DNA from: a virus
IMG/VR virus record: IMGVR_UViG_3300020193_000033
Location: 1 to 53,519 of that record
Direction: 5' to 3' (one strand)
Length of the DNA: 53,519 bases
The translations under genes were made by a program, and so were the position numbers. Shown one piece after another: positions 26,467 through 29,375 of the stretch (its first letter is position 1; every line of letters begins with the position of its first letter). Below the pieces are notes generated by a model, which was given only the letters and a program-made list of their open reading frames with translations, did no database searches and was not told the DNA's origin.

Positions 26467-26537
26467 TAAGGGGAAAAAAAACAAAAAAAATAAGCCCCTT
26501 CAACTTACAGTCGAAAAGACTATAAGTCAAAGGGGCT
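26467..26537 (-). terminator. Strong intrinsic terminator
   Basis: On the minus strand a long hairpin (AGCCCCTT paired with AAGGGGCT, then ACTTA/TAAGT, then AGTC/GACT around a GAAAA-complement loop) is followed by TTATTTTTTTTGTTTTTTTT. This is the clearest rho-independent terminator in the window. It ends transcription coming from the genes at 26571-26934 before the accessory block at 26428 and below, which therefore needs its own promoter. Confidence 0.85.
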
Positions 26538-26570: not shown

Positions 26571-26708
26571 TTACTTTGTCGTTACATCAGGCATAGAAGG
26601 CACAACCTTCTCTATCTTGGCTCTGTTGTAACGGCGTAATCGAATTAAGTTGAGAACAGTTAAATAAGCGATACAGAACATACCGCCAAATAAAATAAAC
26701 TCAAACAT
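26571..26708 (-). CDS. Single-pass membrane mini-protein, 45 residues
   Basis: This frame has a hydrophobic N-terminus (MFEFILFGGMFCIAYLTVLN) followed by a basic stretch (LIRLRRYNRAKIEKV) that sets the N-out/C-in orientation. AGGAG lies 6 bases before its ATG, which overlaps the end of the upstream gene. It is too short for routine gene calling. A regulatory or lysis-related membrane role is possible. Confidence 0.6.
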   Translation of the reverse strand: MFEFILFGGMFCIAYLTVLNLIRLRRYNRAKIEKVVPSMPDVTTK

Positions 26709-26934
26709 TCGTTACTCCTGTCTTCCTACGGGGAATTGCTCGGGGAATTACTCCTGTTTTCCAATGAGGAATGTGGTTGCTATCTGCTCTACCACCAATG
26801 GCTTTCCAAGACTCACGCAAAGCATGAGACTCAGCACTACGACCATTTACATGGGCGAAGTTCGTCTTCGGGGGTTGAGCTGAACCAGGGTTCTTCTTGA
26901 ACGCTTTTCCATTCTTGCGTTGGCTATTAGTCAT
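26701..26934 (-). CDS. Small basic hypothetical protein
   Basis: The 77-residue protein begins MTNSQRKNGKAFKKNPGSAQ and has NGRSAESHALRESWKAIGG and a repeated KTGV near the C-terminus. ATG 26934 was chosen because AAAGGAG lies 6 bases upstream; an earlier in-frame ATG has no such site. It directly follows the structured RNA stretch at 26957-27404. Function unknown. Confidence 0.6.
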   Translation of the reverse strand: MTNSQRKNGKAFKKNPGSAQPPKTNFAHVNGRSAESHALRESWKAIGGRADSNHIPHWKTGVIPRAIPRRKTGVTNV

Positions 26935-27422
26935 AACAGACTCCTTTCTGATAGCCAAGAGCATACACAGAGATTAGGCATTGTTCCAGCAAGGGTAGAA
27001 AGAATAAGACCCAAGTGTTATAGCCGATAAGGAGAAAGGGGGTTAGTCCCTATGTATGCTCTTAGCCATCAGAGTAATACGCCCCAACCGACAAATAAAC
27101 AGGGGTCGGCGGGGGCGTATTCTCTTTTAGACAGAAGACACAAGTTGTTAGATAGCCACCTACGAAGAGAGAATACAGTCCGCCTAGACTACTCTTGCCA
27201 AAAGGCAGTTCGTCTAGGTTATGGACACTCCCTATCTATACTCACAGTTATCCGCAAACTAAGTATGCGAACTATCTGCTAATAGCGATACGGGGCATTA
27301 CCAAACCCGCTTGGACTCTCAAAGATGAGAGTTCGCTATCGGCAGTAGCCAAGTGATAACTATGAGTATAGATAAGGGCAGGGAGAGCCTAAACTCCCCC
27401 TGCCATGCGATTTACGCCACGA
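26935..27422 (-). ncRNA. Large, densely folded non-coding RNA candidate
   Basis: No gene is seen in 488 bases, but base pairing is extensive and nested. Stem A: 26957-26967 with 27053-27063 (11 perfect pairs). Stem B: 27071-27092 with 27105-27125 (about 19 pairs). Stem D: 27183-27189 with 27212-27218 around TGCC/GGCA. Stem E: 27233-27252 with 27355-27374 (19 pairs and one mismatch), enclosing CGCA/TGCG (27253-27269) and stem F (27276-27288 with 27333-27345), which encloses CGGG/CCCG and ACTCTC/GAGAGT. In stem E the one plus-strand C-A mismatch becomes G-U on the minus strand, which favours the minus strand. A multibranched plan like this resembles the GOLLD/ROOL type of phage RNA. Confidence 0.55.
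27377..27404 (-). terminator. Hairpin 18 bases after the 27423-27941 gene
   Basis: GGCAGGG-GAG and CTC-CCCTGCC pair around a 6-base loop. It lies just past the stop of the minus-strand gene. The following bases on that strand (CTTATCTATAC) are only weakly T-rich, and they start stem E of the folded stretch. Confidence 0.5.
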
Positions 27423-27941
27423 TTAGGCGTGGGTAGCGACCTGCTTATCAACGACCCTAAATGACCCCTGAAGGGCTGTCATACGGGAGAGCAAACGCTC
27501 AAATGAGTTGGTCTGCCCTAGTGTTGGGTATAGCGGATTACTCTCAATAGCCTTGACCGCTGAGTCAATGCTATCAAGTTGGTCGGTGAGATACTCGCCG
27601 TTAGCCACGCTTTCGGCAAGTAGGATTTCCTTATTAACAACCATCTCAGCACGAAAGGCGTCAAGTTGCTTGACGATTTCGGAAGGTTTAGCGTTGGTGT
27701 CTATCTTGTCGTAGGCATAGGCAAGAACCCTGATGTTCTTGGATACTACCTTGTCCTCTACACCGAGGTAGATAAGATACGCACCCCACGCCTTGCCACG
27801 AGAAGTCTTGGAAGGCTTCTCACCAAGTAAGTCGTTAGGGGAGGTTGCTGTGCCGTCAGAAAATACCTGAGCGACAATACCGAGCAACTCGGAGGTGTTG
27901 CTTTTGATGATGGCGCGAGCCATCTCTAGTGATGTATTCAC
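27423..27941 (-). CDS. Hypothetical helical protein
   Basis: The 172-residue protein is helical and soluble (ARAIIKSNTSELLGIVAQVF, then NPLYPTLGQTNSFERLLSRM). A GTG at 27941 with GGG 7 bases upstream is preferred over an ATG at 27977, since the residues between are not conserved-looking. Structured non-coding stretches lie on both sides. It is the only gene in an otherwise non-coding 1.3 kb, so it might act with these RNAs. No known domain is visible. Confidence 0.6.
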   Translation of the reverse strand: MNTSLEMARAIIKSNTSELLGIVAQVFSDGTATSPNDLLGEKPSKTSRGKAWGAYLIYLGVEDKVVSKNIRVLAYAYDKIDTNAKPSEIVKQLDAFRAEMVVNKEILLAESVANGEYLTDQLDSIDSAVKAIESNPLYPTLGQTNSFERLLSRMTALQGSFRVVDKQVATHA

Positions 27942-28266
27942 TAGCGTTCCCTTTCTGTATAAGCCATGCGAGCGCATGACTAGCGCCTATGCGGGGATAA
28001 CTTCAGTTGAACCCCGCATAGGCAACGCAGGAAGGCTACCTAACAGGAGGCGTGTAGGTATAGAAATACCACCTACCGCCTAACTTGGTCGCGCTTGCGA
28101 GCCACCCCCTATGGATATCGAATTACCACCCCCCACCCTTAAACCCCTAGCACCCCGACTTTGCAGCAGCTGAAACAAACTAGTACGACTATGTTTACAA
28201 GGCAGTAGCCGGACAACTCCAGACCTTTGTCATTTCAGGCAGTGGCCGGAGAGGTATAGTGCAAAC
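27942..28266. other. 325-base intergenic stretch with perfect long hairpins
   Basis: A perfect 12-pair hairpin (GCCTATGCGGGG 27985-27996 with CCCCGCATAGGC 28012-28023) and an 11-pair hairpin (28048-28059 with 28071-28081) lie here, plus CATGC/GCATG at 27965-27978. This is the divergent region between the minus-strand block and the plus-strand operon at 28267. On the plus side GGCAGTAGCCGG (28201) and GGCAGTGGCCGG (28236) are near repeats 35 bases apart, possible operator sites. GGCAGTAGCC also occurs at 27341. Confidence 0.5.
28255..28260 (+). promoter_or_regulatory. -10 box placed for a leaderless transcript
   Basis: TATAGT ends 6 bases before the ATG at 28267, and there is no Shine-Dalgarno sequence between. 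Transcription would start at the ATG itself. It would be the promoter for the 28267-35323 operon. Confidence 0.45.
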
Positions 28267-28808: not shown

Positions 28809-29375
28809 ATGACAACACTTGCTGCTATACAAGGTGATGGCTGGGCCGTTATAGGTTGCGATTCACGAGCATCTGATGAAGGTGGTCGTTATATGGAACT
28901 AGCAAACTCTAAGATTATTAATAATAACGGAATCTTAATTGCCGTATCTGGTGCATCCCGTGGTGGAAACATTGCACAGTTAGGTTGGAAAGCCCCCAAA
29001 CCTCGAGTTGGAGAAGAGTTAGATCGTTTCATTACCCGCCGTTTTATCCCCTCAATGCGTAAAGCTTTCATTGAGGCTGGCTTTGATGGTAAAGAAGATG
29101 GCGACGCTGCTTGGCAAGACTCTAACCTTCTAGTTGTTGTTAGAGGCGTTATATACCCGATCTTTAATGATTACTCTTGGGATCGAGAAGCCCGCCGCGT
29201 TTACTATGCCGGCAGTGGTGGAGATATAGCTCTTGGAGCTTTAGAGGCCTATAACTATACGAAAGTAAGTACACCGGCCGTCGCGGAAAAGATTTTGAAG
29301 AAGGCTATTGAGATCTCCTGCAAGCATGATATCTATTCAGGTGGAAACATTCATACATACGTACAGGAGGAATAA
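28809..29375 (+). CDS. HslV/proteasome-like Ntn hydrolase
   Basis: This 188-residue protein resembles HslV and proteasome beta subunits. After removal of Met1 the N-terminus would be Thr (MTTLAAIQGDGWAVIGCDSR), the nucleophile of this family. Asp18 and Lys35 (D17 and K34 in mature numbering; HslV D17 and K33) and a GSGGD loop (YYAGSGGDIALGAL) match the active-site plan. Length equals that of HslV. No HslU ATPase is next to it. It may process virion or host proteins. A ribosome site AAGGG lies 6 bases before the ATG. Confidence 0.75.
   Translation: MTTLAAIQGDGWAVIGCDSRASDEGGRYMELANSKIINNNGILIAVSGASRGGNIAQLGWKAPKPRVGEELDRFITRRFIPSMRKAFIEAGFDGKEDGDAAWQDSNLLVVVRGVIYPIFNDYSWDREARRVYYAGSGGDIALGALEAYNYTKVSTPAVAEKILKKAIEISCKHDIYSGGNIHTYVQEE

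Follow-up and report, generated by a model that had tools for sequence, protein, structure and literature searches.

A predicted modular structured RNA adjoining the p180 gene in freshwater actinobacteriophages

To our knowledge, few families of large structured phage RNAs are known. In phage T7, the RNase III sites between early genes work as cis-acting elements; they are stable hairpins lying between operon genes and near ribosome-binding sites, a position shared by the hairpins of the locus described here. A second, putative likeness is to OLE RNA, a large RNA with genetically linked protein partners, the Oap proteins. ROOL (RF03087) is a large structured phage RNA, and GOLLD (RF02032) is a large multibranched one, of which some examples come from lake DNA. 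GOLLD has a variable 5' part and a conserved 3' part (PMC12286853). In this study, we analyzed a candidate RNA of this general kind in the window, i.e., the whole 53.5 kb IMG/VR virus record IMGVR_UViG_3300020193_000033 (positions 1 to 53,519). An earlier note on this DNA had proposed five nested stems forming a multibranched RNA, transcribed from the minus strand and belonging either to GOLLD or ROOL or to a new class of lake-phage RNA.

The window has a major capsid protein with 73-75% identity to those of Streptomyces phages BRock and LuckySocke, and the deposited phage nearest to its HslV-like protease is the lake actinophage DSL-LC01 (39.5%); on the basis of these two matches, the virus is an actinobacteriophage. 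The leftward operon of interest runs from the p180 gene (27423-27977, minus strand, 184 aa, with a likely internal start at 27941) through the RNA to a 77-aa gene (26701-26934, minus) and another short frame, and is closed by a strong intrinsic terminator (26493-26537, minus) with a 20-bp stem and a T-rich tail. The Shine-Dalgarno sequence of the 77-aa gene, AAAGGAG, lies at 26941-26947 (minus), and the place of this small gene is taken by different genes in relatives. On the far side of the divergent intergenic region from p180, the HslV gene (28809-29375) is read rightward. In this region, several relatives have CTATGATCATAG palindromes, and a TTTAAGGGTGGGGGG stretch (window ~28127-28148) is conserved. 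The p180 leader itself has a perfect 12-bp hairpin (27985-28023), and in the related contig L004 the same place is occupied by a hairpin whose sequence differs. L017, which is close to L004, has a deletion just downstream of the small gene, around 4700, and its RNA is intact.

The structured region (~470 nt; 26947-27418, minus strand), supported by minimum free energy (MFE) folding and by covariation with L004 and L017, is bounded by the p180 stop codon and the ribosome-binding site of the 77-aa gene. Both strands fold far below shuffled sequences, the minus strand being the lowest (-184.6 kcal/mol, z -9.8, 0 of 100 shuffles, compared with -164 kcal/mol and z -8.1 for the plus strand); for 26944-27425, the MFE is -206 kcal/mol in the minus sense and -177 in the reverse complement. 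The five nested stems are all present in this multibranched fold. Reading along the minus strand, HP1 (27378-27403) is preceded on its 5' side by a small additional hairpin (27407-27418). HP1, the stem E of the earlier note, is a perfect GC-rich hairpin right behind the p180 stop and occurs with differing sequences in distinct relatives. A terminator scan lists HP1, but its T tail is weak and broken (CTTATCTATA); the tail reads CTCTATCTATG in many relatives. The 5' arm of HP2 (27355-27377) pairs with its 3' arm (27230-27252), and the 78-nt core (27273-27350) is nested in the HP2 loop; it carries GGCYACTR, an ACCAGG-like motif and a TTATCAGGTA-like motif, and includes an inner hairpin (27315-27332). 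A side hairpin of the HP2 multiloop (27253-27269) shows one compensatory change (A-U to C-G), and a further hairpin (27178-27226) shows four two-sided compensatory changes. The invariant motif GTGTCTTCTGTCTA (27128-27141) precedes HP3 (27071-27125, CCGACCCCT..GTCGG), a long hairpin previously called stem B, whose module was found in 17 viral contigs, every one from the same phage group. Stem A, the outermost, exists as well, although its extent had been given too short: its 30-nt arms (27044-27073 on the 5' side and 26947-26976 on the 3' side) are 83% complementary, and the latter abuts the Shine-Dalgarno sequence. All these elements are on the minus strand.

A coding role for the region was ruled out. 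The 76-aa ORF on the plus strand (27052-27282) is not conserved; in comparison with L004, most indels are not multiples of three and the matching frames are short. No conserved reading frame was found over the stretch; of the refuting outcomes named in the earlier note (this one, absent covariation and unconserved stems), none was observed.

Comparative evidence was examined at two levels. The entire RNA is found in L002, a contig almost identical to the window, and in a second species (L004, L005 and L017, ~80% identity), and between the window and L004 the RNA has ~80% nucleotide identity and p180 35% amino-acid identity. When the MFE fold of the window sequence alone was applied to L004, 130 pairs were unchanged, eight had one-sided and seven two-sided changes, and 15 were broken, compared with means of 1.07 two-sided (maximum five in 5000) and 27.3 broken pairs (minimum 20) for the same substitutions placed randomly. 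The broken pairs sit mostly in small or doubtful helices. Among these is an alternative pairing of 27117-27125 with 27168-27176 from which two states had been suggested; it has no two-sided compensation and four of its pairs are broken, whereas the competing HP3 hairpin keeps pairing (e.g., T-A to C-G), and the suggestion is not supported.

For HP2, the helix was proposed by RNAalifold with G-U pairs allowed, and its limits are identical on either strand. Across 28 relatives, 92.6% of its cells are paired, eight of its 16 pairs show two-sided change, and the 20 two-sided cells compare with 4.9 in shuffles, none of which was as high. In the minus sense, G-U cells exceed A-C cells by 65 to 5, which indicates that the RNA corresponds to the minus strand, as the earlier note had argued; a symmetric DNA palindrome would not yield this excess. 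The sense fold is also lower in energy than the antisense fold in 17 of 17 relatives. Aligned alone over all groups, the core has no single common fold, and predicted folds differ between groups; covariation was therefore tested within groups, by folding one sequence per group and testing the fold on the remaining members. Two-sided pairs in the other groups numbered 22, 16 and 16, against 11.8, 6.6 and 10.5 in shuffles (0 of 500 shuffles each); the shuffles leave relatedness in, hence these counts are not probabilities. These folds keep 82-92% of cells paired, compared with 34-48% in slid controls. The stems are thus conserved with covariation beyond controls, and synteny and strand are conserved too. 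On comparative sequence evidence, 26947-27418 is almost certainly a real, conserved, minus-strand structured RNA.

Relatives were gathered via the neighboring HslV gene, which provided 80 phage loci of 406 found. Many of these 80 loci match the RNA profile, invariably upstream of HslV and in the same orientation. Of the 56 HslV loci with sufficient upstream sequence, 39 contain the core, all of them on the same strand; it was not found in L052-L059, L068, L075, L076, L085-L087, L089, L096 and L099, which also have HslV and enough upstream sequence. With a core profile, nhmmer matches the window at E 3.8e-10 and has matches throughout the group. A scan with the core signature had matches in 37 viral contigs, almost all from this phage group, and two apparently chance matches in bacteria, for which one genome per species was searched; each phage record searched has at most one copy. 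An initial scan for GGCTATAACACTTGGG yielded mostly chance matches and was discarded. By DNA similarity, the RNA was not found in cultured phages, nor was it found in the BRock and LuckySocke segments, which are partial genomes. The relatives are contigs of freshwater actinobacteriophages, which agrees with the suggested lake-phage origin, and the predicted RNA family is uncatalogued and confined to a group of these phages, in dozens of contigs.

The layout of the RNA is modular. Relatives have in common HP1 after the p180 stop, HP2 (CTATCTATGYCCATAG..CTATGGGCRTAGATGGGG), the core, and either GTGTCTTCTGTCTA or GGTGTCCTGCTA, accompanied by HP3 or its equivalent. The core has a fixed length of 78-80 nt and a fixed arrangement, GGCYACTR..ACCAGG-N23-TTATCAGGTA, and its first motif, GGCYACTG, recurs upstream of p180 (window 28201-28210 and 28238-28247, minus; same region in L004, L028, L040, L097 and others). 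The distance between the p180 stop and the end of the core is 300-332 nt in most relatives, 248-296 nt in one group and 397 nt in L031; in the window and L004 it is only ~150 nt because the core is nested in the HP2 loop, and elsewhere the core lies 3' of HP2. In the minimal forms (L030, L036, L045, L061 and L117), the core begins 6-16 nt past the p180 stop, with HP1 and HP2 absent between. A 3' module, in which CACTCTCTATCTGAGAGT comes after a stem whose loop has 40-70 nt, stands before the ribosome-binding site of the next gene and is sometimes repeated; we infer that stem A of the window, at the same place, is the homologous module. Thus, the predicted elements HP1, HP2, HP3 and stem A are gained, lost or re-ordered around a constant 78-80-nt core. 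In addition, TATCAGGTAG is repeated at small-module borders downstream of the core (L037, L040, L081, L088 and L094), as if modules were swapped as cassettes at this junction.

The RNA is accompanied by p180. All 49 distinct cores have upstream a p180-like or p180-sized ORF (166-226 aa) ending 6-318 nt away. In six of these loci, including the minimal L045, L061 and L117, the p180 profile match is weak or non-significant (E 0.05 to 3.9), so the pairing there rests on size and position. The p180 proteins form a fast-evolving, all-alpha orphan family (32 relatives aligned). No relative was detected in Pfam, PHROG or PDB sequences, the AlphaFold model (pLDDT 91.7) has no Foldseek match at E<=0.001 in two fold libraries, and neither sequence nor fold searches showed any likeness to a known RNA-binding protein.

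Several explanations other than a new RNA family were considered. One is that the RNA is a diverged member of GOLLD, ROOL or another known Rfam family, given that this is a large phage RNA whose 5' part is variable and 3' part conserved as in GOLLD (PMC12286853). Rfam 15 (4227 models), at strict and relaxed thresholds, gave no family match, group I and group II introns included, in the window or five relatives; the window had only chance matches below gathering score (MIR156, Xist, SNORD101 and FinP), and the relatives had tRNA matches only. Among 22 related phage records, no GOLLD match passed the cut-off (the best had E 0.84 and an unrelated position) and ROOL had none; the control genomes of the former search gave no match and the positive control of the latter was also silent, so the negative result rests mainly on the cmscan runs. 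No tRNA was detected in the window, and a single tRNA occurs in some relatives, ~2 kb off on the opposite strand; the locus is without a tRNA array. As neither gathering scores nor relaxed E-values gave a match in the window, the five relatives or the 22 records, membership in a known Rfam family is very improbable, and a probable new class is supported by this negative together with covariation and synteny. A chance or compositional artefact, contradicted by covariation and synteny, is the least probable explanation of all. The locus could also act as DNA, with an incidental RNA fold, in the form of palindromic operators, an origin of replication or a recombination junction: the HP2 halves are CTATGNNCATAG-type palindromes, with similar ones and GGCYACTG repeats in the p180 promoter region, parS-like palindromes come right after the minimal core (TGTTTCACGTGAAACA at L045:1060-1100 and TGTTTCACGTGGAACA at L117:5515-5545, minus), and TATCAGGTAG is repeated at module borders. 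However, selection on the minus-strand RNA is shown by the excess of G-U over A-C and by the better fold of the sense strand, and the HP2 arms covary on both sides, leaving a DNA-level role improbable.

More serious is the possibility of a purely cis-acting intercistronic element without trans function, whose hairpins set RNase cleavage, message stability and downstream translation. HP1 immediately behind the p180 stop is consistent with this, as is the RNA remaining constant while the downstream genes differ; the gap between the core or the 3' stem module and the next Shine-Dalgarno sequence is 1-30 nt in many loci, and the last structured element often abuts that sequence, an arrangement that fits a cis role equally well. 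On the other hand, a constant length of ~300 nt and near-invariant loop motifs (ACCAGG, TTATCAGGTA and GTGTCTTCTGTCTA) exceed the needs of a cleavage or stabilizing hairpin. We regard a purely cis-acting element as a tentative but real contender, and a cis role in operon processing or translation is nearly as likely as binding of p180 by the core.

The reading that we prefer is a new phage RNA family in constant pair with p180. The RNA would be made within the p180 transcript and fold co-transcriptionally, HP1 would cap the p180 3' end, and stem A would shield the 5' end of the next message. Because the pairing is constant and the core geometry fixed, the core may be where a constant trans-acting factor binds, p180 being the likeliest candidate; the RNA might then either be released as an RNA-protein particle or exert feedback on the operon. 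Such a functional p180-RNA partnership is plausible but far from assured. More speculative, and somewhat doubtful, is the idea that p180 joins a modular, permutable RNA, whose domains were transferred into each other's loops in the course of evolution, to make an RNA-protein particle, or that this RNA assembles with itself in the manner of GOLLD and ROOL. If the RNA is processed, a discrete minus-strand RNA with an end near TATCAGGTA would be expected.

Compared with known systems, the candidate RNA is about 300-480 nt long, whereas GOLLD has ~800 nt, and the two have no sequence or structure match; GOLLD lies in a tRNA array, while this RNA lies in a protein operon adjoining p180. It differs from ROOL in being modular, permuted and linked to a protein gene, with no match to the Rfam model. 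OLE RNA belongs to cellular Gram-positive hosts, whereas this RNA belongs to phages, has no Rfam match and would have as its partner p180, a protein without known relative. Unlike the T7 hairpins, it is far larger and has invariant loop motifs and a fixed-length core. Its re-ordered modules offer a natural case of RNA domain permutation. The family is smaller than GOLLD and ROOL, is reduced in several phages to a minimal form of ~80 nt and is consistently accompanied by a candidate protein partner, and it thus opens the role of large phage RNAs to simple binding and deletion experiments.
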